Shown here: one piece after another, positions 10,544 to 25,047 of the stretch
How the letters are laid out: each line of letters starts with the position of its first letter
Position numbering within the stretch: position 1 is the first letter of the stretch
Notes under the pieces: model-generated
The model's input: the letters and a program-made list of their open reading frames with translations, nothing else
What the model was told of the DNA's origin: nothing
Database searches by the model: none
Assembly: GCA_023254355.1 (NCBI GenBank)
Contig: JALRLR010000003.1
Coordinates: 1 to 40,291 of the forward strand
Length of the DNA stretch: 40,291 nt
Origin: Candidatus Poseidonia sp.
GTDB taxonomy: Archaea; Thermoplasmatota; Poseidoniia; Poseidoniales; Poseidoniaceae
Direction of reading: 5' to 3'
Translations under genes and position numbers: made by a program

Positions 10544-10582
10544 ATGAGCGAAGCGTATGCTTTGCAGTCGGTGAATCCATGA
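10544..10582 (+). CDS. Possible 12-codon leader ORF
   Basis: ATG 10544 opens a 12-residue ORF (MSEAYALQSVNP) ending in TGA at 10580-10582, which overlaps the ATG of the 1915-aa gene at 10579-10581. A strong GAGGAG site precedes it with good spacing, whereas the giant gene has only GGTGA (10570-10574) four bases before its ATG. The arrangement is typical of translational coupling, where ribosomes finishing the short ORF restart on the long one. The peptide has no signal sequence or recognisable run of regulatory codons. It could also be a chance ORF if transcription starts downstream of 10544. Confidence 0.45.
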   Translation: MSEAYALQSVNP

Positions 10583-13500
10583 GGCGCAGTCAAACCACCC
10601 TACTGACCACGCTTGCGGTGATTGCAAGTCTGTTGTTCATGTCTCAGTTCCCGGCGATTTCAAACGTGGCCAACGTCCACCCCGATGACACGACGCAGAC
10701 GCCGCCTCCCAACACCGATTCGGACGGCGACCTCATCCCCGACGTGCACGAAACGTTGTTTGAAGAATGGATGAATTGGACCGCTCCCGACGGCCGGAGT
10801 GTCAGCATGAAGGGACTTGACAAGGACGATGCATCGGACGCCGATACGGACCGCGACCTCGACGGTTTGAACGCCACCGAGGAATTTTGTTGGCCCTACC
10901 CGGCCAACTGTACGGCACCGGGATTCCCCCGTGGCTTGACCGGCCAACTTGATGAGAACAGCGACCGGGTCTACTTGGACCCCCGGATGTCGGACACCGA
11001 TGGCGACGGCATGCCCGATGGTTACGAAGCCTACATGTGTCAGCGGAGCGGTGGTTTTGACCCCATTTCCATTCGTTTCATTTGTCCAACGTTTGACCCT
11101 CTCAACGCCAGCGACCGGGTCCTTGACACCGACAACGACGGCTTTGATGTTAACAGAGACGGATTCATGAGCGAGGCAGAGCGTTACACGGCTCCAGAAG
11201 AGTATGCCCACGGCATGCCGACCAACTACACCAACGAGTTGGATGGCCTGTGGTGTTACGCCACGTTGCCCGACGGGGCCGTTCTGAAGAATTGGCCCTA
11301 CATCCCCTCAGGCGCCAACGCCACCTTCCACAATCTGCTCGCTGCGTGCACCACCCGTGATGTGGACGTCGTGGGTGAAGACATGTGGTTGGGAACCGAT
11401 CCGCTCTTGGACGATTCGGACCGCTATCTCTGGGACGGTTTCTCGATTCGACCGCTTTATCCTTCATTCGGGGACGGGATTCCTGACGGTTGGGAGGTTC
11501 ACTTCGGGCTTGACCCGTTGAACCGTTCGAACGCCCTCGCGGACCCGGACCGCGACGGTTGGGACGCCAATCGTGACGGCGGCATCTCGGAAGACCTCTC
11601 ACGTTCGCTCACCGCCATCAAGCTTGGCGAAGCCCTCTCCACCCTTGAGGAATACATCGTCCACTACGACGACGGTAACACCGTTTATCCCGGTCTGAAG
11701 TCAACCTTTGTTGGCGACACCGAGACGTTCTCGACCATGCCGTTGGTGTACGATGCGCCCGAAGACGTCCTTTCCGTGCTCCACCACGATGTTCGAGCCC
11801 TCGACGAAAACGACGGGACCGTCTACGCCATGACTCGCTACGGTGTGAGTGTTTTCAACGAGGCTGAGGCTACCCAAGCGCATCAATGGCTCCCCCAGGG
11901 GGTTGAATTGAACGACGGTTTCCTGGCTCGGGCCGACACCTCTCCCTACGCCTTGGTGATGGGAACCAGCATCGGTGTTGCCGTCGCCCCCCTGCTGGCT
12001 GATGGTTCGCTGGGCAACCTCCCCACGTGGTCGTGGTCGCTCATCGGGCCCGTCCATGCGGTTGCCCCGCTGGCCAGTGAGGACGTCAACCTCCACATCA
12101 TCGGACTTGGTGATGCCGGTGCTGGAGCGGTCATTGAACTCGACAGCGGTGCAAGCATCGCCGAGACGCACGACCTCGGTCTTGGGATCGCCGCCGGTTT
12201 GGCGGAGGCCAATGCCTCGGTGACGGCCATCCAACACGGTCTTGCCGGAGGGTCAACGCTCAAGCTCTTCGTGGGAACCGACCGTGGATTGTTCATGGTC
12301 GATACCGCTTCGGCACGAGACGAAGTCGCCGGTTCTTGGCGATTCTTTTACACGCAGGATGACGTCGATCTTCCGTCGAACGTGGACGAAGTCCGAAGCC
12401 TGCCTTTGGGAACGGTCGGGAACCCTGCCGAGGTTCGAGCCATGGTGCTTGATGGCCCCGCACCTTCCAACGCTCAAGTGCTTTGGTTCGGAACGCCAGC
12501 TGGCTTGCACAAACTCAACCTGAACGATGACACCATTGACCACAGCGGTTTGTTGTTGCATCCCGGCGTGGATGGGAAATTGTCACGCGAAACCAACAGC
12601 ATTCAAGCCATTCATCCAACCGGGGATGAGGTTTTGGTTGGCTCTGATTGGGGCCTTTGGGCCGTTGCGGGGGATTATGCTTCGGTGTACGGCCTCCAAG
12701 ACCAAACCCGTCTCCCTGGGGAAATTGTCGCCATCACCACCTCGGTTGGTGAAGGAAACGTCACGGTGTACGCCTCGGCTTCTCCAGGTCAATACGCCAA
12801 CCTGTTGCTCATGGACCCGGGTGCGAACGATTCGGACGCTGACGGCATGCCAGACGGTTGGGAGGTGGTTCACGGTTTGGACCCCACCGACCCTTGGGAT
12901 GCGCTCTACGACCATGACGGCGACGGGTTGGACCTCGACCAATCAGGGGACATGAACCTCGAGCGACTTTGGACCAACCTGGATGAATTCCGCTACACCC
13001 GGCTGACGCCTGAAGGCTACAACTCAACCGACCCTCGTTTGGGCGATACCGACGGTGACGGTTTGGGTGACGGTGCCGAGTATTTCGGTTTCTTCTTCGA
13101 GCAATCCAATCTTTGGTGCCACTACACGGTTCAACTGGTTCATGTGTGTGATGATGCAGCGGGGCAAGCCGCCAATGCCACCTACCTTGCCATGGCCAAC
13201 GTCGACAGCGCCACCGACCCCACCAATCCCGACACCGACGGTGACGGCATGCCGGACGGATGGGAAATCCAACACCGCCGCTGGGTCGGCACGACCTTCT
13301 CGGGCGGGAACAATTGGAGCCTTGACCCGCTTCGACCCGATGACGCCCAGTGGGATGCTGACGGTGATGGCCTTCCCAATCTATGCGAATACCAGTGGTC
13401 CATCGTTCGATTGATGGGCGTGAACGGCGATTTGTTGGAAGATTACGGAGAATCGGCGGAGGCCGCTTCGCAATGGGCCGTTGCCGACCCGAACCTCATC

Positions 13501-16326
13501 GATTCCGACGGTGACTCTCTGCCCGATGGTTGGGAGTCGAAGGGCCTGTGTTCGTGGGACCCTTCGCGACGAGGGGTCAATCCGCTGAACGGCTCAGATG
13601 CGTTTGAGAACCCCGACGGTGACGGTTATGACATCAATCATGACGGTGAACTCACCGCCAACGAAGCCTTCGTGAATTACCTCGAGTATCACGTTCGCAC
13701 CGATCTGTTCAACGGAAACATGACGCTTGATGGCGTGGAATTGCCCAACGGGTTCACCACCGACCTGTTCAACCGCATCGGTGACCTCGGTGCTCCCGAG
13801 GCCACCTTTGCTGAGCGAGCCTCCGGGGCGGTGACCTCGGGGCAATCGTTGTACAGCGTGGGCGCAGCCGACCCGTTGAGCGCCGACACGGACGAGGACG
13901 GCATGCCCGACGGTTGGGAAATTTTTCACGCTCGCTGGGATTTACTCGATGACGCATGGACCCTCAACCCGCTTGATTCAACCGACCGATGGAACGATGC
14001 CGACAGCGATGGCATGACCAACTGGGAAGAGTACAACGCCATCTCGCCCGTGTACAGCCAATCCGATGCGAATCGCTCGTCACCTCAATGGTTCGTGACC
14101 ACCATCGGCACGGCCTTCGCGCTTCAACAGTGGCCGGGAATCCCGACCGAGGCATCGTTTGGTGACTTCCTCTCGCAGGACCAAATCAACCTCACCGGAT
14201 GGACCTCTGATCCAAACAACGTCGACACCGACGGTGACGGCATGCTCGATGGTGTGGAACTCCTGTTCACTTCGTGGAACGTCTCGGCCGGGACATGGAC
14301 GCTCAATCCCTTGGTAGCGGGCGACGGTGATTTCGACAGCGACGAGGACGGTCTGATCGATCGCCAAGAATTTGCCCTGGCCACCGAACAACCAGACAAC
14401 GGCATCGAACATCCAAGCGATGCCCCACTCATGCACATCGACGGTGATTTCCAACAACCCACCGAGAAAGCTCAGCGCGTCTTCAACATCCTCATCTCAA
14501 AGGAAACTCGAGGGAAACGCTTGCTGAACGATTTCAATGCATGGCAGCAAGGCGAACCGCCCAACGCCTTCATCGAAGTGGTGTTGGGCATGACGGACCC
14601 CACCATTGCCGATACCGACGGTGACGGCATGTATGACGGGTTTGAGTATTGGTTCACGTCGTGGGATCTGGACCAAAATCGATGGTCCATCAACCCGCTC
14701 ATCGATGGCGATGTCAACCTGGATTCCGACCAGGACAGTTTTGACTGCAACGGCGACGGCGAAATCGATGCCAATGAATCGTTCAGCAATCTTCGAGAGT
14801 GGGAATCACGAACATGGGGGAAGTACCTGAACCGGAACACCGTACCCGCATCCATGGGGATCATTGATTTCGGAGAAGATGCGATGCTGGCCTACCAAGA
14901 AGAACTCGGTTACTCCTTGATTCAGGCACAGGCGGCTTTGTATCAAGACTTCATCGAGAAGGGGCAAGATTCCATGGACCGAATGGCGAAAATCAACTCC
15001 TTGGAAAGCGAGAACTTCAATCGGAGTTTGCGCGGTGTGGCTGACCCGACTCACCCCGATTCAGACAGCGACGGCATTCCCGACGGTTGGGAATACTGTT
15101 ACGCCATTTTTGGGATGAACGACATCACCACTCAAAACCACTGGGCAGCGAACCCGCTCAACCCTTGGGATGTCAACTACGACGGTGATCACGACGGCTG
15201 GTACGACCGAACGGCGTTTGATATCCCTGCAGAACAAGGGACGTGGGAGGACCGAAGTTTCACGCCCTCTGGCAACCTCATCCAAAACGGCATCGGTGAC
15301 CTCCCGTTCACGAACGGCATGGAGTACGATAACGAAACTCGCCCCGATCTCAACGACAGCGACGAAGACAGCCGAACCTACATCACCGAAGTGGTCAACG
15401 GAGCGGTTGTTTCGCATTCCAGAGATTACAACCTCTCCGACGGTCGTGAGGTGTTCAAATACGGTTCCAATCCAAGCGACAACGACACCGACGGCGACAT
15501 GCTCCCTGACTGGTACGAATACAAGTTGGGTTGGAACGAAAGCAACGACAATTACTCCTCGTACCTCCGAATCCGGGTGGTTTGGATTGACGTGGCCACT
15601 GGAGGGCCATGTGACACCTCCACCACCTCCTGTTTGCCGCTCTCCCAAGACGGTTCAGGTGGAACCTTGAGTCGGCCCGATGTCGAGATGGCTTGGTTCA
15701 CCCTCAACCCCGCCGACCCCAACGATGCCAATCTTGACCCCGATCAGGATGGAAACTGGGACTGTACGGGTGCTGGATGCACCTACGAGCCGTACACCAA
15801 CTTCCAAGAATTCTACGCCATCACGGTAAGCGAATACGCCTCTCCCAATGCAGTTCGATTAAGCGGGTTGACCTACGACGGCTCCCCCGTCACCGAAGGT
15901 TGGCAATTCCGTGCGGCCATCTTGGGGCTCGGGCAGTCCAATGAATTGGTGCTGAATTACCTCAAGCTTGACAAGTACGCTGGCCCCGATCGACAGTACG
16001 GGTACATCGTGGACGATCAAGACACGGATTTCCTCACGGTGGACGCCAGCGACGATATCGTGCTCATGGCTGGAAATCGGACCGATCTTTGGGAGATTGT
16101 CTATGCGGGCTCTCCCAACACGGCCCCCGTTCGTGGCGTTGGTGAGCACGAATTTGGATGGTACTTGCTTGACTTTGATGACGACCACCTCGCGGAAGGT
16201 TCCAACCCGATGAATTGGGATACGGACGGGGATTGGATGAACGACTGGTTCGAGGTCCGAGATGACGAAGAGGACGGGGTCCGTGGCGACTCCTCTCCCA
16301 TTCGATACGACTCTCGACAAACCTGA
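10579..16326 (+). CDS. Giant secreted calcium-repeat and beta-propeller protein
   Basis: A 1915-aa exported protein. The signal peptide spans about residues 1-30 (LLTTLAVIASLLFMSQF). About thirteen acidic repeats of the form DTDGDGMPDGWE are spread along it (for example near residues 139, 751, 885, 1102 and 1344), matching thrombospondin type 3 / EF-hand-like calcium loops. Interspersed are canonical EF-hand-type loops: DVNRDGFMSEAE (from residue 190), DINHDGELTANE (1018) and DCNGDGEIDANE (1389). Residues ~390-745 hold repeated FVGTDRGLF / WFGTPAGLH / LVGSDWGLW motifs, a likely beta-propeller. No C-terminal membrane helix is visible, so it may be released or held non-covalently. A structural or adhesive surface role stabilised by calcium is likely; any enzymatic activity is not evident. 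Start is set by the signal peptide. Confidence 0.88.
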   Translation: MRRSQTTLLTTLAVIASLLFMSQFPAISNVANVHPDDTTQTPPPNTDSDGDLIPDVHETLFEEWMNWTAPDGRSVSMKGLDKDDASDADTDRDLDGLNATEEFCWPYPANCTAPGFPRGLTGQLDENSDRVYLDPRMSDTDGDGMPDGYEAYMCQRSGGFDPISIRFICPTFDPLNASDRVLDTDNDGFDVNRDGFMSEAERYTAPEEYAHGMPTNYTNELDGLWCYATLPDGAVLKNWPYIPSGANATFHNLLAACTTRDVDVVGEDMWLGTDPLLDDSDRYLWDGFSIRPLYPSFGDGIPDGWEVHFGLDPLNRSNALADPDRDGWDANRDGGISEDLSRSLTAIKLGEALSTLEEYIVHYDDGNTVYPGLKSTFVGDTETFSTMPLVYDAPEDVLSVLHHDVRALDENDGTVYAMTRYGVSVFNEAEATQAHQWLPQGVELNDGFLARADTSPYALVMGTSIGVAVAPLLADGSLGNLPTWSWSLIGPVHAVAPLASEDVNLHIIGLGDAGAGAVIELDSGASIAETHDLGLGIAAGLAEANASVTAIQHGLAGGSTLKLFVGTDRGLFMVDTASARDEVAGSWRFFYTQDDVDLPSNVDEVRSLPLGTVGNPAEVRAMVLDGPAPSNAQVLWFGTPAGLHKLNLNDDTIDHSGLLLHPGVDGKLSRETNSIQAIHPTGDEVLVGSDWGLWAVAGDYASVYGLQDQTRLPGEIVAITTSVGEGNVTVYASASPGQYANLLLMDPGANDSDADGMPDGWEVVHGLDPTDPWDALYDHDGDGLDLDQSGDMNLERLWTNLDEFRYTRLTPEGYNSTDPRLGDTDGDGLGDGAEYFGFFFEQSNLWCHYTVQLVHVCDDAAGQAANATYLAMANVDSATDPTNPDTDGDGMPDGWEIQHRRWVGTTFSGGNNWSLDPLRPDDAQWDADGDGLPNLCEYQWSIVRLMGVNGDLLEDYGESAEAASQWAVADPNLIDSDGDSLPDGWESKGLCSWDPSRRGVNPLNGSDAFENPDGDGYDINHDGELTANEAFVNYLEYHVRTDLFNGNMTLDGVELPNGFTTDLFNRIGDLGAPEATFAERASGAVTSGQSLYSVGAADPLSADTDEDGMPDGWEIFHARWDLLDDAWTLNPLDSTDRWNDADSDGMTNWEEYNAISPVYSQSDANRSSPQWFVTTIGTAFALQQWPGIPTEASFGDFLSQDQINLTGWTSDPNNVDTDGDGMLDGVELLFTSWNVSAGTWTLNPLVAGDGDFDSDEDGLIDRQEFALATEQPDNGIEHPSDAPLMHIDGDFQQPTEKAQRVFNILISKETRGKRLLNDFNAWQQGEPPNAFIEVVLGMTDPTIADTDGDGMYDGFEYWFTSWDLDQNRWSINPLIDGDVNLDSDQDSFDCNGDGEIDANESFSNLREWESRTWGKYLNRNTVPASMGIIDFGEDAMLAYQEELGYSLIQAQAALYQDFIEKGQDSMDRMAKINSLESENFNRSLRGVADPTHPDSDSDGIPDGWEYCYAIFGMNDITTQNHWAANPLNPWDVNYDGDHDGWYDRTAFDIPAEQGTWEDRSFTPSGNLIQNGIGDLPFTNGMEYDNETRPDLNDSDEDSRTYITEVVNGAVVSHSRDYNLSDGREVFKYGSNPSDNDTDGDMLPDWYEYKLGWNESNDNYSSYLRIRVVWIDVATGGPCDTSTTSCLPLSQDGSGGTLSRPDVEMAWFTLNPADPNDANLDPDQDGNWDCTGAGCTYEPYTNFQEFYAITVSEYASPNAVRLSGLTYDGSPVTEGWQFRAAILGLGQSNELVLNYLKLDKYAGPDRQYGYIVDDQDTDFLTVDASDDIVLMAGNRTDLWEIVYAGSPNTAPVRGVGEHEFGWYLLDFDDDHLAEGSNPMNWDTDGDWMNDWFEVRDDEEDGVRGDSSPIRYDSRQT

Positions 16327-16365: not shown

Positions 16366-16391
16366 AATTGGAAGTCGGCTGTCATGGAGAC

Positions 16392-19300
16392 ATGCAGGGT
16401 AGCGGACAGCATAGATTGAGCGCACGAGGCATATGGTTGCTTCTGGTGGGCCTCATGGTGCTCACGCCTCTCGGCCCGATGGCAAACGTGGTTTCACTCC
16501 AGGCCGAAGCGGCTCCCGGCACCCGCCACGTCTACCAGTTTTCAGGCGGTTCGAGCGAACACATCGCTTTGTATCAAGGGGCCAATCCCGACTTGGGGGC
16601 CTCGGTGGACCTCCCTCGTGGCGCTTTGGTGACCGATGTTACCATGACGCTTTCCGGTGCATCGGCCACCGGTTGGTCACAGGTGGTGGCCGACGACCGC
16701 GTCCACTGGGTGCGAGGCGCTGAAACGGGCATCGACGATCGCAGTGGCGACCTGACCCTGGCGCTCGCCAACATCAGTCGCAACTTCCTTCCACACGGCG
16801 AAGATGCCTACATCAACCCCAACTCCGATGCATGGCTTGACAACGGTTCCTACGCCCTGCGTCAGCCTCACACCTCCAACGCCACGGAGAGCTTGTTCTC
16901 GCAACAGTCCACCAAAACGTCCTCCAGTTTCATGGCGCAAAGCCAAGGAGCCATCCTCAAACATCACGACTGGCTTTTCCTCTCCACGTGGTCCTCCTCC
17001 TCCTTCCACAACGTGGTTGAGCGCCTGTATCCGAACAACGCGACTCGGGAATCGGTCATCACCCTGGACCAAGCCTCGTGTACGCTGCCCCAGAAGCATT
17101 CCTCGTCGTATTACGCCTACTACGGCTTCCGAGATTGGACCGTGACCGACGATGAGCGCCTCTTCGGCATCCTCTCCGGCTATCGATACACCTACGGTTC
17201 GACGGCTCCAGTGAATTATCATCGCGTCATGGAAATGGACATCTCCCGCGATGACACCTGGACCTGCATTGATTCATACGACATTTCACCATCGGTCGGT
17301 GAGTACACCGGTATTGCCTATGACCGCGTCTCGGGGAAAGTCTGGGTCGCACACAACGCAATGAACCGCCTTTACGCCTACGACTTTGCCGGTGATGGGA
17401 CCGGAACCTACACTCGGAGCCAAGAGTTCTACACCTACACCTCCTCATCGTCCTCAACCTGGGAGTGCGGTGGCAGCACCAGCAGCAACCAGAAGCAAAT
17501 GCTTCGTGGCTTGGCCGTGAACGGCTCGACGTTCTACATGCGCTGCCAAAAAGACCAGTACTACAACGACCGTGACCAATTGGAGGCTTGGTCCGTTTCG
17601 GGCAGTTCCTCCGCCCTCATCCCCGAGAACACGGTTCGACAGATTTCCCGCCTTGGCTACGGGTTGCAATACGACGGCGAGCGATTTGTCACCGTGGACA
17701 GTGGGTATTCCACCTGGTCGGGTGCCACCCTGTATTACCGAGAGTTCGGCACCGGCTGGATGTACGAAACGACCCCGTCACCCGGCACCACCACGTGGTA
17801 CGGTGATGTCATCCGGACCGGAGACGATGTATTGGCCGCCAACGTGCAGACCTATTGGTCCGCCGCTTCCATCGGGGACCGGGTTGACTACTGGATTTCA
17901 GCGGACAACGGCACCCACTGGGAAGAGGTGGAGTCCAACGCCACCATTCACTTCGACCACCCCGGGAACGAACTGGTTTGGAAAGCACAACTGATTGGTT
18001 CAACGGCCGTTTCGTGGTGGGTTGACATGGATTACGCCACCGCTTACTCGTTGCAAGGCGATTGGACTTCACCCCACTTCAACACCGGTACCAAAGTGGG
18101 GAAGGTCCGCCCTCAGTGGACCGCTGATGTCCCTTCAGGGACCACCCTCAGCGTCCAAGTGTCCAACGACAACGGGACAACGTGGCTCGACGCCGTCAAC
18201 AACGGCGAGACCAGTTTCTCGACCGAAGCGGCCGGGAACACGCTACGGTATGCCATCGTCATGGGCACCAGCGACCTCACCAAGACACCCAAACTCGACC
18301 GATTCGTCCTCGAATACGAAGAGGGCTATCCTGACCGACCGATGCTGGATATCGGAGGGGACGGCACCTACGATTGGGAATCCGTCCTGTTCCTGAACGA
18401 ATCCTCGGTGGTTGCCTCTGACGATTCTCCGGTCGGCGATGTCGTCAAGCAGGCGCCAACGCTGGTGGATGCCTTCAACGACCATATCCCTGAGAACGGC
18501 GATGGCACGGTGAACATCCCCATCGGTGTGAAGGCTGCCAGTTCGGGGCGGGTGAAGATATCCAATATCGACATCACCTACGCCATGCAAACCCGTGCCG
18601 TTGATGCGTCCTTTGAGGGTGGTCTCGCCGCCCCTGACGGCATTTATCGAAATTTCATCACGCGGGTTGCACCGGGTGACGATGTGGACCGAGTGACCAA
18701 GGCGGTCATTGGCATCGATCACTCGCACGGCGAAAACCCCTCCTTCACCTGGGAACGCGGCGACTCGTGCACGGTCAATTCCGATGCTGGCGGTATCGTC
18801 GTGTTCGACGTCGCCAATTGCACCTCTTCGGTGGATGCAAACGACGTGGTGTCCATTTGGATGCCGACCAAAGTGAACTGGACGTGGGACGATGAATCCA
18901 GGACCGAAGCCATCATCTCGGTTGAAGATGACTTGGGTCCGTCGGTCAACCAATGGGAATCCTCGTCCATGAAACTCGTGGTTGAGAACGATATCCAACT
19001 TGACGGACTGCGAGTTTGGGAGGAAACGGGTCGTCAGTTGTACCCCATGGATTGGGTTCGAGGCGGCTTCAACTTGAGTTTCAGCGGGTCCATCCATTTC
19101 CAAGATTCTCAACTCATGCCACCCGCAGGAAGTTTCTCGCTTCGCGTGATCGGGCAAAACGTCACGTATGACGGCGACCCCATGGGTGAACCCATGGTGC
19201 TCTACGAGGAAGTGAATCCCGCCTTTGGCGCTTACAACATGACCTTCACGTCCCCCATCGAGTCCACACCAGGCGGGATGATTTTCTATGTTCAAGCGGT

Positions 19301-21833
19301 GGACCTCAAGAACGGTTCAACTTTTACCAACCCCAATTACAACAGCATTCGCTTGATTCTGGACGGGAATTCTCCACTCGTGTTGAGCGCCACCCCGTTG
19401 GACGGAACTGAACGGCATGCCGGTGCTGCCGGTGTCGGCCAATCCGTCTCCATCGTGGTTCAGGACTCGGTTGACCCGCCCCGTCAACTCAACCTCCATT
19501 ATTGGGTGGGTTGCAAAGCGAGTGATGCCATTGGGTGCACCGATTACAACTTTGATGGCTTGCCCAACGAAGACGAGTACGAATTGGCCACGCTGTCCTC
19601 CCCCGAAACTCGAGCGGGCGGTCTGAACATTTTCGAAGGCCTCATCGACGACTCGATGTTGCTCCACCGCCAACGCGTTTCGTTTTACGTGACGGGTGAA
19701 GATGAACAAAACAACGAGATTGCCATGGGTCGCGGCCCGGTCTGCCCACCGTCCACCATCACCTGTGGTTATCGTCCGGGTGAAGTTGTCCCTGATTGGG
19801 ATGCTGACCTCGTGACGTATCACATCCGTCAAGAGTTTGAACCAGAGGTTGACCTCGGCAATTCGTCCATTTTGGGTCACGATGATTACGAACCGCTCCA
19901 CCCAGGCATCCCCTACACCGCCCAAATCAAACTGAGTGACACCAACGGGTGGCAAGACATTCAGTATGTCCAAGTGGCGCTTGGTGGAGACTTCGACGAC
20001 GACGAGTCCTCGCTGTTCATCTCCTTGGCCGAAGGCGAAGACGGTCTTCCCAAAGCCGTGATGACCTCCGGCTCAAACAACATCGCCGTCTCCAACTTGT
20101 ACTCCACGGTTGAACTTGAACAAGGCAACGAATCGGTGGTGATCATCCAAGCTCGGTTCCAATTGACCTGGATGTTCCCCGAAGGGTTTGACACCGACGG
20201 GGAATCCCACTTCCTCCCGAGAATCAAAGTCACCGACATGCCTTGCAACGACAACGAAGTCACCCCGTGCTTTGAGGTCGAAGAAGGCCTGGGTGATGAT
20301 TGGTGGAGCCTTGACAACGACTTCCGCTTTGATACCGAAGCCGGCCACATTCGTGCCATTGAATTGCGAAACAGTGAAAATCACTACAACCCCGAGAATT
20401 ACGAAACCATCATCGGCGCCGGTCAGGCTCTGAGGGTCTCGGGCCGAGTGTTGTTTTCGGAGGACGAAACGCCCGCACCCCCCGGGGCGTTTGACGTGGT
20501 GTTCGGTGATTTCGAGAACAATTGGCGAACCTCCACTCGTGAAGACGGTGAATTCAGCCTCGATTTGCTCGTGCCTTCCGTTCGGTCCGGCCGGCTCGAC
20601 CTGCGCCTCAGCATGGATGACTTGCCGGGGCTGGCCTTTGATGAGACACCGTTCTCTCCGCGCGTCCGATTGGCCGTGGACAGTGCACGACCCACCATCG
20701 ACAGCATCTCCTTGGGAGGTGTTCCTGCTGGCTCGCCGCTCTCCATCGGTGCAGCCAACGATCTCCAAGTCATTCTCATCACCAACGACGAGAACGGGTT
20801 TAATTTCGAGGAATCTGCCGTCCTCCATTACCGCGTGAAAGCAGGCGAGGCTGAAATTTCTCGAGGAAGCGTCTTGCTTCCCGAGATCACACCGTTTGGC
20901 CAGCAATACTTCTGGAGCGGCTCCTTGGATTTGACCGATTCTGGCGCAACCACCCTCCTGCCGTATTACACCGTTGATGTTTGGGTCTCGGGTTCGGACG
21001 AAGCCGGCAACCCCTACGATACCCTTGGTAACTCCATGTCCGATGCCTTTGCATCATGGCCTCTCGCCTTGCTTGGACCTCGCGTGGACCTGCAGGATGC
21101 GTCCACCTCCATGCAGTGGGATGTTCCCAGTCCCTACGAAGGTGAAACGGCGACGATGGTGGTGAACACCCAGAATTTGGGTGGGAACGGCATGGTTGAA
21201 TTTGCCCTTCAGCAATTGGTTGACGGTGGATTCTGGTCGACCGTGAACGTGGTCGGTCTTGAAGCCACGGCAGGCGTCCCCCTCTCGGTTTCACTGCCGG
21301 TGGTCGCCACCGAGCAGGCCGGTACCGTAATCGAATACCGTGTGATCGTGATGGTTGACGGCGTCGAGATGGACCGTCACACCGTTGATTCGTTGCTCAT
21401 CAAGGAAGAAACGATTCGAGACGGCGAGGCCCTTTCTCAACAGCTCTCCACCGATGTGTTCAGCGTGACCCTGTTCATCATCGCGTTGGCCTCGGTGTCC
21501 TTTGGCATGTACGCCCTTGTCATGCGACGCCGCATGCTCGCCCCGGAGTCGGAGGAGGAGATGGCCGACCAAACCGATGTGGTCGCTGAGGAAATGCAAG
21601 CCACCAAGACCGTGCCGACCATCGTGGCCCCACCGGCACCGTCAGCTGCACAAGCCATCCCGCCCCCTCCTGGTGCGAGTGTACCCCCACCTCCGCAAAA
21701 CATCCCGAAGGCACCCGGACCTGACCGCTCTACTCCGCCCCCGGTTCCACCGACGGGCTTGCCGGAAGGTTGGAGTCAGGAGCAGTGGAATTCGTACGGT
21801 TGGCAATACATCGACGCGCTGTCAACGAAGTGA
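16392..21833 (+). CDS. Giant membrane-anchored surface protein with beta-propeller-like region
   Basis: An 1813-aa protein starting at ATG 16392; a TTG 24 nt upstream would add eight residues before the signal peptide and is less likely. The signal peptide spans about 1-43 (GIWLLLVGLMVLTPLGPMA). A Ser/Thr/Tyr-rich repeat region at about 170-500 (YDRVSGKVWVAHNAMNRLYA) suggests a beta-propeller. Next come beta-sandwich modules (ISADNGTHWEEVES; VSNDNGTTWLDAVNN) and several Ig-like domains. A single membrane helix at about 1688-1712 (VTLFIIALASVSFGMYALVM) precedes RRR, an acidic stretch and a Pro-rich tail ending WSQEQWNSYGWQYIDAL. Topology is outside-in with a cytoplasmic tail, like the protein at the window's left edge. 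Function is unknown; a sensor, adhesin or carbohydrate-binding scaffold is possible. Confidence 0.87.
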   Translation: MQGSGQHRLSARGIWLLLVGLMVLTPLGPMANVVSLQAEAAPGTRHVYQFSGGSSEHIALYQGANPDLGASVDLPRGALVTDVTMTLSGASATGWSQVVADDRVHWVRGAETGIDDRSGDLTLALANISRNFLPHGEDAYINPNSDAWLDNGSYALRQPHTSNATESLFSQQSTKTSSSFMAQSQGAILKHHDWLFLSTWSSSSFHNVVERLYPNNATRESVITLDQASCTLPQKHSSSYYAYYGFRDWTVTDDERLFGILSGYRYTYGSTAPVNYHRVMEMDISRDDTWTCIDSYDISPSVGEYTGIAYDRVSGKVWVAHNAMNRLYAYDFAGDGTGTYTRSQEFYTYTSSSSSTWECGGSTSSNQKQMLRGLAVNGSTFYMRCQKDQYYNDRDQLEAWSVSGSSSALIPENTVRQISRLGYGLQYDGERFVTVDSGYSTWSGATLYYREFGTGWMYETTPSPGTTTWYGDVIRTGDDVLAANVQTYWSAASIGDRVDYWISADNGTHWEEVESNATIHFDHPGNELVWKAQLIGSTAVSWWVDMDYATAYSLQGDWTSPHFNTGTKVGKVRPQWTADVPSGTTLSVQVSNDNGTTWLDAVNNGETSFSTEAAGNTLRYAIVMGTSDLTKTPKLDRFVLEYEEGYPDRPMLDIGGDGTYDWESVLFLNESSVVASDDSPVGDVVKQAPTLVDAFNDHIPENGDGTVNIPIGVKAASSGRVKISNIDITYAMQTRAVDASFEGGLAAPDGIYRNFITRVAPGDDVDRVTKAVIGIDHSHGENPSFTWERGDSCTVNSDAGGIVVFDVANCTSSVDANDVVSIWMPTKVNWTWDDESRTEAIISVEDDLGPSVNQWESSSMKLVVENDIQLDGLRVWEETGRQLYPMDWVRGGFNLSFSGSIHFQDSQLMPPAGSFSLRVIGQNVTYDGDPMGEPMVLYEEVNPAFGAYNMTFTSPIESTPGGMIFYVQAVDLKNGSTFTNPNYNSIRLILDGNSPLVLSATPLDGTERHAGAAGVGQSVSIVVQDSVDPPRQLNLHYWVGCKASDAIGCTDYNFDGLPNEDEYELATLSSPETRAGGLNIFEGLIDDSMLLHRQRVSFYVTGEDEQNNEIAMGRGPVCPPSTITCGYRPGEVVPDWDADLVTYHIRQEFEPEVDLGNSSILGHDDYEPLHPGIPYTAQIKLSDTNGWQDIQYVQVALGGDFDDDESSLFISLAEGEDGLPKAVMTSGSNNIAVSNLYSTVELEQGNESVVIIQARFQLTWMFPEGFDTDGESHFLPRIKVTDMPCNDNEVTPCFEVEEGLGDDWWSLDNDFRFDTEAGHIRAIELRNSENHYNPENYETIIGAGQALRVSGRVLFSEDETPAPPGAFDVVFGDFENNWRTSTREDGEFSLDLLVPSVRSGRLDLRLSMDDLPGLAFDETPFSPRVRLAVDSARPTIDSISLGGVPAGSPLSIGAANDLQVILITNDENGFNFEESAVLHYRVKAGEAEISRGSVLLPEITPFGQQYFWSGSLDLTDSGATTLLPYYTVDVWVSGSDEAGNPYDTLGNSMSDAFASWPLALLGPRVDLQDASTSMQWDVPSPYEGETATMVVNTQNLGGNGMVEFALQQLVDGGFWSTVNVVGLEATAGVPLSVSLPVVATEQAGTVIEYRVIVMVDGVEMDRHTVDSLLIKEETIRDGEALSQQLSTDVFSVTLFIIALASVSFGMYALVMRRRMLAPESEEEMADQTDVVAEEMQATKTVPTIVAPPAPSAAQAIPPPPGASVPPPPQNIPKAPGPDRSTPPPVPPTGLPEGWSQEQWNSYGWQYIDALSTK

Positions 21834-22285: not shown

Positions 22286-22322
22286 ACAAGGAATTGAAGA
22301 ACAACCGACGTGAGGGTTGAGC

Positions 22323-23111
22323 ATGAACGCAAGGCATCTTCGCAGTCTCCTGTTGGCCACCTTGCTCATGGTGGGGCCCATGTCGGGTTGTTTGGGTGAG
22401 GACGGTTTTGAGTTGCTCCCCGAAAAAAAGGGGATTCCCGGAGGCTTGACGCTGGCCTGTTTGAGAGGGTCCGTGTATACCTCTTTGGTGATTGAAATTG
22501 ACCATGCGCCGGGTTACCGACCGTACACCAGCAGCACCGACCTTTTGGTTGAACGGCTGGAATCGGTCTGCGACAAACCCTCAGGGATCACCGTGAAATT
22601 CAACGAAGTAACGTTTGACCACGAAGGGTCATGGTCGGCTCAAGACGTTCGAGATGCAGGTTGGGAGGCCAAGGATGCTTCGCCGACCGATGGCACGACC
22701 CTCCGATGGCAATTCGTGTTCCCTGAAGGGGTCTACGAAGACGAGAGCGTTTTGGGGGTCGCCGTTGATGCCTCCACCGTCGCGTTGTTCGGTGATTCCA
22801 TTGAGGAAGCCGACGGATTGTTTGGTCGTCCTTCGGTGGAAGACGTTGAGAACAGCGTTTTGGTCCATGAAGCCGGTCACTTGTTGGGGTTGGTCAACTT
22901 GGTCTACCAATCACCGGTGGCCCACGAAGATTCCGAACACCCCGGCCATTCAAACAACGACAACTCCGTCATGTATTGGGCCATTGAATCCACTGACCTG
23001 ACCAACTTCATCTTTGGAAACCTTCCAACTGAATTCGATGATGATGACCTCGCCGACCTTGCTGGATTGGCCAGCGGCGACATTGAGGTCCGGGATCAAC
23101 TTTGGCCCTGA
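22323..23111 (+). CDS. Metzincin-like zinc metalloprotease lipoprotein
   Basis: A 262-aa surface protein. The N terminus (LRSLLLATLLMVGPMSGCLG) has a lipobox-like MSGC, indicating lipid anchoring outside the membrane. The catalytic motif HEAGHLLGLVN starts at residue 182 (zinc-binding His, general-base Glu, second His), followed by a Glu/His-rich segment (HEDSEHPGHSNNDN) and a Met-turn-like SVMYW. The usual third ligand of HExxHxxGxxH/D is Asn here; a downstream His could serve instead. Similar HExxHxxGLVN...LMYW proteins occur among prokaryotic membrane metalloproteases. ATG 22323 is chosen because TGAGGG at 22311-22316 precedes it. It likely processes surface proteins or external peptides; the substrate is unknown. 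Confidence 0.82.
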   Translation: MNARHLRSLLLATLLMVGPMSGCLGEDGFELLPEKKGIPGGLTLACLRGSVYTSLVIEIDHAPGYRPYTSSTDLLVERLESVCDKPSGITVKFNEVTFDHEGSWSAQDVRDAGWEAKDASPTDGTTLRWQFVFPEGVYEDESVLGVAVDASTVALFGDSIEEADGLFGRPSVEDVENSVLVHEAGHLLGLVNLVYQSPVAHEDSEHPGHSNNDNSVMYWAIESTDLTNFIFGNLPTEFDDDDLADLAGLASGDIEVRDQLWP

Positions 23112-23431
23112 CCCATGCTGGCAACGGCGTCTCGCCATGCATCAAAGATGGACCAAAGGTAGAGTCCCAGCCAAAGGATGATGGTCAGCGCAAGCGGGAT
23201 TTGCAGCAAACTCCAATCCACCGCTCGCTGGTGCTGGCGGTTGAAGTGCTGGCCGAGAAAGAGAAAAGGCACGGCAGCCAGCAACGCCGCAATGAGGGGG
23301 CGCATCGCCCCCCACATGCCCACGCCAAAGGTGATCTCCCGCCAAATTTCCCGAGCGATTCGGGTCGGTAGGAATCCTTTCGGTTCCATGGTGGATTCGG
23401 GAGAGAGCTGGACCACCAGTTCCTCTTCCAT
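23096..23431 (-). CDS. Small two-helix membrane protein
   Basis: About 111 aa from ATG 23431. An acidic N-terminal segment is followed by an amphipathic basic stretch (PTRIAREIWREITFG). Two hydrophobic helices follow, at about residues 44-62 (LIAALLAAVPFLFLG) and 78-98 (LQIPLALTIILWLGLYLW). The frame extends further upstream, but that part lacks membrane or domain features and would run into the divergent peptidase/Nudix gene. The 3' end overlaps the convergent lipoprotein gene by 16 nt. No family is recognised. Confidence 0.68.
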   Translation of the reverse strand: MEEELVVQLSPESTMEPKGFLPTRIAREIWREITFGVGMWGAMRPLIAALLAAVPFLFLGQHFNRQHQRAVDWSLLQIPLALTIILWLGLYLWSIFDAWRDAVASMGQGQS

Positions 23432-23515
23432 AGACGTCGGTGAACCTGCTGGTTTGTCAAGATGACGCCATGCAACGGGGGGATGGATGAAAAACCTCGG
23501 GTCCTTCATCCCTCC

Positions 23516-24535
23516 ATGCCTGCATCGAAGTCGGTCCTCATCACCGGTTTCGAACCGTTCGGAGGCCACACCACCAACATCAGCGCCACGGTGGCGGTGG
23601 CCTTGGGGTCGCTTCGGTCCATTCTTCATCCATGGACCGATGAAACGGTCGACCTCAAGGTGACCGCACGAGTGTTGCCCGTTGATGCGAACGGAGCACG
23701 TGACTGCGGTGAACGCTGGCGGTCTGGAGAGCGATGGGATGCGATTCTCCACATGGGCTTGTGTGAGTCATGTGAACTCCCTCGGGTTGAACGATTGGCG
23801 CGTGACCGACTTCACATGCGGATACCCGACAATCAAGGCAGGCAATCCACGGAAGGAACACTTGACGGTGGCGGAGCACGCGGGTGTTGGGTTGACCCAG
23901 GGGCGTTTGTCCGAGGGGGGCGATTCAGCGGGGCAGAGGTGTCCGACGATGCGGGGTCGTTTGTCTGCAACGAGACGTATTTTCACACCCTTGCTGCTTT
24001 GAGTGACGAGGGTGAAGGTCACCCGGTGCCGACGCCGGCTCTGTTTGTCCATCTTCCCCACCAGACGGTCATGCCCGTTGAGGATGCGCTCGAATTTGTG
24101 AAGGGCATCCTGCCCAGCCTCGTGTTTCCTTATCCTCCCGACGCCGTTCACGTCGTGGCGGCCTCGATCACGAACGGTTCGGGCCTTCCATTGGTTGCTC
24201 GCCGTGGCCCCGACCAACGCGATGCTGGTTTGTGGGAGTTTCCCGGAGGAAAATGCGAACCCGGTGAAGCTTGGAATCATGCCTTGCGCCGCGAAATCAA
24301 GGAAGAATTGGGCCTTGAGGTGACGCCAAGCCGGTTGTTGGGTACGTGGCTGAGGCCCAATGAACATGCGTGCTACGTGATTCACTTGGTTGGTGCGATC
24401 TTGAACCAACCCTCCGCTCAGCCGACCCTGAGCGTCCACGACGCATGGATGTGGGTTGATGAAACAACAGCCGATTCACTCGCGTGGGCTGGGCGTGACG
24501 GGGAGATGCACCAACTCCTGGCTTCACTGGTTTAG
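23516..24535 (+). CDS. Pyroglutamyl peptidase I (C15) fused to a Nudix hydrolase
   Basis: About 339 aa with two enzyme domains. Residues ~6-210 match pyrrolidone-carboxyl peptidase (family C15): opening VLITGFEPFGG, Glu92 in RVERLARD, Cys151 in SDDAGSFVCNETYF and His179 in FVHLPHQT, the expected Glu-Cys-His set with spacing like known enzymes. These remove N-terminal pyroglutamate from peptides. Residues ~220-339 form a Nudix domain with the exact box Gx5Ex7REUxEExGU at 245-267 (E251, R259, E260, E263, E264), preceded by LWEFPGG. Nudix enzymes cleave nucleoside diphosphate-X compounds or 8-oxo-dGTP. The frame runs continuously through both domains. ATG 23516 is chosen by comparison with C15 N termini; ATG 23483 and 23462 are alternatives. 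The functional link between the halves is unknown. Confidence 0.88.
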   Translation: MPASKSVLITGFEPFGGHTTNISATVAVALGSLRSILHPWTDETVDLKVTARVLPVDANGARDCGERWRSGERWDAILHMGLCESCELPRVERLARDRLHMRIPDNQGRQSTEGTLDGGGARGCWVDPGAFVRGGRFSGAEVSDDAGSFVCNETYFHTLAALSDEGEGHPVPTPALFVHLPHQTVMPVEDALEFVKGILPSLVFPYPPDAVHVVAASITNGSGLPLVARRGPDQRDAGLWEFPGGKCEPGEAWNHALRREIKEELGLEVTPSRLLGTWLRPNEHACYVIHLVGAILNQPSAQPTLSVHDAWMWVDETTADSLAWAGRDGEMHQLLASLV

Positions 24536-25047
24536 AGCCAAGTCGAGGCTTCACCATCGTCGTCCATGGCTCGGTCGTCATGCACGGAACGAGGTACTTG
24601 GGTGCGGCCGGGATGCCACGTGGCGGCTTGCAACCATTCACCCAATCCCTCGCCTTCGATTTCCAAGGTGAAGACGCCGCCCAGCGGTTCTTCACCCGGG
24701 ATGGGAAACGAAATCTTCCCGGCAAGGGCGGCTTGCCTTGAAATTGAAAAGACGGTTCGGTTTTCGCTCAATTCTCTTGCCATCGCATCGAGCGCCGTGT
24801 CCAAAATTCGTTGCTCGTGAAGGAAGGAGAGAAAGGTCCGCATCGAAACGTGGGTAAACACCCATTCGGCGTTCACGGCTGCTCCAAATTCAGGTTCTTC
24901 GGGGAGAGGTTCGGGATTCAATTCAGGAAACAGGTTTCCGAGTGCTTTGGCCACGGCAAGCGGTGAATCAGCGCCATGAAGCCCTGTGGTCAGACGGACT
25001 TGGAAGCCTTCGTCGATGCCCGTCAAACGGAGCCTCGCCTCGGACAT
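24532..25047 (-). CDS. UPF0201 / PF01877-type archaeal RNA-binding-like protein
   Basis: A 171-aa protein resembling the archaea-specific UPF0201 family (PF01877, described as RNA binding). It shows SPLAVAKALGNLFPELNPE in the first third, then the family's most recognisable stretch, FLHEQRILDTALDAMA, followed by a hydrophobic strand, SRQAALAGKISFPI and GVFTLEIEGEG. It has a somewhat extended acidic C-terminal tail (DDDGEASTWL). No membrane segment. The stop overlaps that of the convergent peptidase/Nudix gene by 4 nt. Exact molecular role is not established. Confidence 0.78.
   Translation of the reverse strand: MSEARLRLTGIDEGFQVRLTTGLHGADSPLAVAKALGNLFPELNPEPLPEEPEFGAAVNAEWVFTHVSMRTFLSFLHEQRILDTALDAMARELSENRTVFSISRQAALAGKISFPIPGEEPLGGVFTLEIEGEGLGEWLQAATWHPGRTQVPRSVHDDRAMDDDGEASTWL

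Follow-up and report, generated by a model that had tools for sequence, protein, structure and literature searches.

A single open reading frame in the window (the whole stretch of 40,291 nucleotides that we analysed, one contig of a 1.63 Mb, 82% complete Candidatus Poseidonia sp. assembly) encodes a Peptidase C15 domain followed by a NUDIX domain (Table 1), and we confirm that this fusion is real. It occurs in the two families of the order Poseidoniales as a single frame free of stops, mostly at one syntenic locus, and both of its domains are under purifying selection. From its sequence and predicted structure, the protein is probably an ancient, Poseidoniales-specific bifunctional housekeeping enzyme, in which a divergent C15 peptidase and a MutT2/NudG-like hydrolase would work from independent sites; we favour this reading with modest confidence.

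Table 1. The C15-Nudix fusion gene, its domains and key residues, and its flanking genes, in window positions.
Feature	Position	Strand	Basis or remark
Small membrane-protein gene	23096..23431	-	divergent, conserved neighbour; start at 23431 inferred
C15-Nudix fusion gene	23516..24535	+	339 aa
Peptidase C15 domain, residues 6-211	23531..24148	+	Pfam PF01470; Foldseek to pyroglutamyl peptidases
Catalytic Glu92 codon	23789..23791	+	aligned to conserved Glu of 6ltq/1a2z/1iof
Catalytic Cys151 codon (AGSFVCNETYF)	23966..23968	+	aligned to solved pyroglutamyl peptidases
Catalytic His179 codon (FVHLP)	24050..24052	+	aligned to solved pyroglutamyl peptidases
NUDIX domain, residues 212-323	24149..24484	+	Pfam PF00293; Foldseek to M. 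smegmatis MutT2
Nudix box GKCEPGEAWNHALRREIKEELGL, residues 245-267	24248..24316	+	sequence
Asp328 codon, at place of Asp in MutT2 LAWVPAD	24497..24499	+	alignment to 5zrc
Convergent gene	24532..25047	-	weak PF01877 RNA_binding match; conserved neighbour; 4-base overlap with 3' end of fusion

The open frame spans 23462..24535 on the forward strand. Its first ATG, at 23462, would give a product of 357 aa, and a later one, at 23516, a product of 339 aa; we favour the later start because conservation among relatives sets in around residue 5 counted from there. Both domains exceed their curated Pfam cut-offs, with 55.3 bits against 22.7 for PF01470 Peptidase_C15 (E 1.1e-14) and 61.2 bits against 21.1 for PF00293 NUDIX (E 1.4e-16). 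The sequence-only reading of this DNA had placed both domains in one frame, with a full Glu92/Cys151/His179 set and an exact Nudix box, and its coordinates and residues were right. The triad aligns with that of solved pyroglutamyl peptidases and is invariant in all 56 homologues, and the box of the window protein fits GX5EX7REUXEEXGU exactly. A misaligned catalytic residue, which the same reading had named as a way in which it could fail, was not found, and its impression that both halves look active holds as a prediction of competence from these aligned, invariant positions.

In the Nudix half, Gly244, Gly245, Glu251, Arg259, Glu260, Glu263 and Glu264 are invariant (47/47), while the last Gly of the published consensus varies among relatives (G in 14 of 47). 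The catalytic residues of both domains are unchanged at identities as low as ~26%. Across seven sequence pairs, one of them with saturated dS, dN/dS was 0.07-0.25 for the C15 domain and 0.04-0.16 for the Nudix domain.

An assembly or sequencing error that ran two adjacent genes together has next to no chance of explaining the fusion. The closest public relative, another Poseidonia sp. assembly, encodes a 92%-identical protein of the same architecture, which places the window in a Marine Group II archaeon, and dozens of more distant copies carry the same fused frame in other assemblies, which excludes such an artefact. A search of 293 genomes from the order gave matches to at least part of the window protein in 280, and the best matches are stop-free and near full length. 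We found 48 of 56 distinct Poseidoniales sequences to be fused, a count that takes in one partial sequence (L021), and the other eight to be C15 only. In a diverse set of 20 fused sequences, every one matches both pyroglutamyl-peptidase and MutT-type models. Thus, most relatives encode one fused protein rather than two separate ones, settling the check on conservation that the sequence-only reading had proposed.

For the whole protein, AlphaFold gave a model with a pLDDT of 92.9 and a pTM of 0.91, and each half resembles solved enzymes in Foldseek searches. The first half matches pyroglutamyl peptidases at a target TM of 0.74-0.81, including the pyroglutamate-bound structure 5z48 (0.79-0.81). 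The second half matches MutT2 of Mycobacterium smegmatis at a target TM of 0.82-0.86 and 36-37% identity; the MutT2 structures with CMP, dCMP or 5-methyl-dCTP lie at 0.85-0.86 and 36%. Its C-terminal motif, LAWAGRD in the window protein and W-L-P-A-D in many relatives, aligns with LAWVPAD of MutT2. Asp328 (D in 43 of 47 sequences, N in the other four) falls in this PAD-type motif at a position that we take to help choose the base, making it a possible base-recognition site. The Nudix half scores far below the equivalog cut-offs of both NudG (PRK10546, 68.4 bits against 156) and the MutT 8-oxo-dGTP diphosphatase (TIGR00586, 48.4 bits against 97.9). Six other Nudix matches occur in the same genome, so the fusion is not its only Nudix protein.

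The eight C15-only proteins all belong to Thalassarchaeaceae and form two groups nested inside the fused clade of the C15 domain tree, a quick tree whose inner branches are moderately supported. Since this nesting calls for two state changes, the fusion is probably ancestral. In the simplest history consistent with these sequences, it would have arisen before the two Poseidoniales families split, with the Nudix domain then lost about twice, although a single loss may account for the pattern instead. Fission of the Nudix domain into a free gene was rejected: in nine genomes with a C15-only gene, no separate gene closely resembled the lost domain, and these genomes have either no Nudix paralogue or paralogues of weak similarity (about 28-34% across most of the domain). 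Several further Thalassarchaeaceae genomes, of genera g14 and g21, gave no C15 match at all, which suggests that the whole gene was lost there. The C15-only lineages kept the C15 domain and lost the Nudix domain at the same locus, indicating that the two activities are separable. The persistence of C15 alone argues that its activity is independent of the Nudix partner and speaks against an obligate link between the halves.

Outside the order, the C15 genes examined in other Thermoplasmatota were standalone: there was no C15-Nudix fusion among them, and 30 of their loci had no Nudix box in either flank. No C15 was found in five genomes of the sister family in the class (f3). Samples of 299 genomes from the phylum of Thiopseudomonas and 301 from that of Ardenticatena contained no C15-Nudix fusion, and 16 long-frame or doubtful candidate regions from these two bacterial samples contained no Nudix box. 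The absence of the fusion from these samples supports, short of proof, its restriction to Poseidoniales. Viral carriers of the fusion were also considered and rejected, as matches on viral contigs were confined to the Nudix half and the longest-reaching matches that we read held no C15 motif.

Four matches that appeared to reach the C15 domain (L075, L077, L083 and L087) are Nudix or MutY-like proteins without C15; L083 and L087 are MutY-like adenine glycosylase frames with a C-terminal Nudix-like domain and an apparently complete Nudix box. Other Nudix combinations were seen on viral contigs. A single frame for a phage protein of ~1015 aa (L172:30-3074) encodes both a portal-protein domain (PF04860) and a Nudix domain (PF00293), a second contig (L173) carries a near-identical frame, and a 497 aa frame (L158:1023-2513) places a MutT-like Nudix domain after an HNH endonuclease domain.

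An operon context for the fusion gene was rejected: its flanks are one divergent and one convergent gene, leaving it without operon partners as a clue to a pathway. At C15-only loci, among them L066 (4989-5576) and L073, the gene likewise has an opposite-strand membrane-protein gene upstream and a convergent RNA_binding-like gene downstream, followed by DnaJ, while a motif scan did not find the conserved neighbours at L069, L071, L072 and L074. A lipoprotein-like gene with a HEAGHLLGL zinc-protease-like motif and a weak matrixin match (22317-23111, forward strand) adjoins the fusion locus in the window and is missing from that place in L066. Also on the forward strand of the window are two giant tandem proteins of 1915 and 1821 aa (10579-16326 and 16368-21833), which are surface-protein-like with almost no Pfam matches.

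The substrate of the C15 half is where the alternatives first diverge. The domain scores 60.8 bits against the pyroglutamyl-peptidase I equivalog (NCBIfam TIGR00504), far below the cut-off of 201.75, and, unlike other thermoplasmatotan C15s, has no STLP stretch. Arg109 and Glu153, which sit within conserved motifs, are invariant in all 56 Poseidoniales C15 domains, fused or not, and variable in related standalone C15 proteins. In the C15 domain tree, the Poseidoniales stand apart from other Thermoplasmatota with full SH-aLRT support, and a long branch lies between their clade and other C15s. In addition, neither of the two 5-oxoprolinase families searched for, PF03746 (PxpA-type) nor PF02538 (hydantoinase-B-type), was found in 21 Poseidoniales genomes, so recycling of pyroglutamate by either type of enzyme was set aside, and the earlier suggestion that the protein handles 5-oxoproline-linked metabolites is weakened. 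The lost STLP stretch, the newly invariant pair and the absent 5-oxoprolinase families make a plain pyroglutamyl peptidase label doubtful. Together with the long branch, they lend some weight to a reading in which the C15 half is an amidase for a different substrate, cyclic or lactam-like and perhaps charged, and the Nudix half an ordinary NTP pyrophosphohydrolase. However, the triad, the TGFxPF motif, Asn21 and the overall fold are all retained, and pyroglutamate could be exported or passed to another enzyme where 5-oxoprolinase is missing, leaving this substrate shift a tentative possibility.

A second set of alternatives concerns how the halves relate. Both might act in sequence on one metabolite, such as a pyroglutamyl or gamma-glutamyl-derived conjugate linked to a nucleotide or to RNA, as could be argued from the retention of the fusion across the order with both active sites intact and from the well-defined domain arrangement that the high pTM predicts. 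Yet the Nudix domain was lost in about two lineages that retained C15, the flanking genes point to no pathway, and we know of no conjugate of this kind, so we consider sequential action unlikely. Distinctly speculative, and a shade less likely, is the idea that the fusion marks a new pathway acting on a pyroglutamyl- or lactam-amide carried by a nucleotide-linked molecule, in which the altered C15 site with Arg109 and Glu153 would take off the cyclic acyl group, and hydrolysis of the diphosphate would fall to the Nudix domain. Alternatively, the Nudix half could sense a nucleotide without catalysing and so regulate the peptidase. Nudix domains that do not catalyse are a known class, usually found within multidomain proteins (PMC5389931), but the catalytic Nudix-box residues, all invariant here, would be needless in a pure sensor, and we regard this role as very unlikely.

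Two housekeeping activities in one polypeptide remain the most likely reading because both active sites look competent. We infer that both domains catalyse, on the substrate classes given here, from independent sites of a protein that is probably cytosolic. The C15 domain, if it behaves like pyroglutamyl peptidase I, would use Glu92, Cys151 and His179 to break the amide bond that follows a cyclic residue at the N-terminus, so that peptides lose their cyclised first residue. The Nudix domain, by likeness to MutT2 and NudG, would convert nucleoside triphosphates to monophosphate and pyrophosphate with the glutamates of its Nudix box and a divalent metal; its substrates would probably be (d)NTPs that are damaged or modified. 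Damage clearance is a possible role for such an enzyme. Weighing against this housekeeping reading are the low equivalog scores of both halves and the retention of the fusion for so long across an order, which suggests more than accident.

Surface-ocean waters are rich in Marine Group II archaea, most of which have not been cultured. A widely conserved enzyme for peptide-end trimming and nucleotide hydrolysis would offer a compact way into how they use peptides or control damage, and the lineages that naturally lost Nudix provide a ready comparison for whether the two activities are linked. We found no description of the fusion or of a Poseidoniales C15 in the open-access literature, a search base that leaves most subscription journals uncovered. 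The domain families are known; their combination, its age within Poseidoniales and the natural loss of the Nudix domain appear to be undescribed.

Compared with pyroglutamyl peptidase I (6ltq, 1a2z, 1iof, 5z48), the fusion C15 domain shares the fold, the Glu/Cys/His triad and the TGFxPFGG and PDNxG motifs. It differs in its low identity (21-28%), in the missing STLP stretch, and in the invariant Arg109 and Glu153 and the C-terminal Nudix domain that the fusion protein adds; the other C15 proteins examined are standalone. The Nudix half has its fold and a W-E-F/L-P/A-GGK-type box in common with M. smegmatis MutT2 (5zrc-5zrp) and E. coli NudG/ORF135 (2rrk, target TM 0.74), and its C-terminal W-x-P-A-D-like motif resembles theirs, but at 32-37% identity to these enzymes and as part of a larger protein instead of a free enzyme. 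Nudix domains are joined to unrelated domains elsewhere too, with partners other than C15. PRK08999 combines Nudix with a further domain, presumably ThiE-like, and NMN adenylyltransferase-Nudix proteins carry Nudix on an unrelated enzyme domain. Mycobacterial MutT1 consists of Nudix and a C-terminal domain (PMC11784022), again one that is not C15. The Poseidoniales fusion joins a Nudix domain to an apparently new partner domain.
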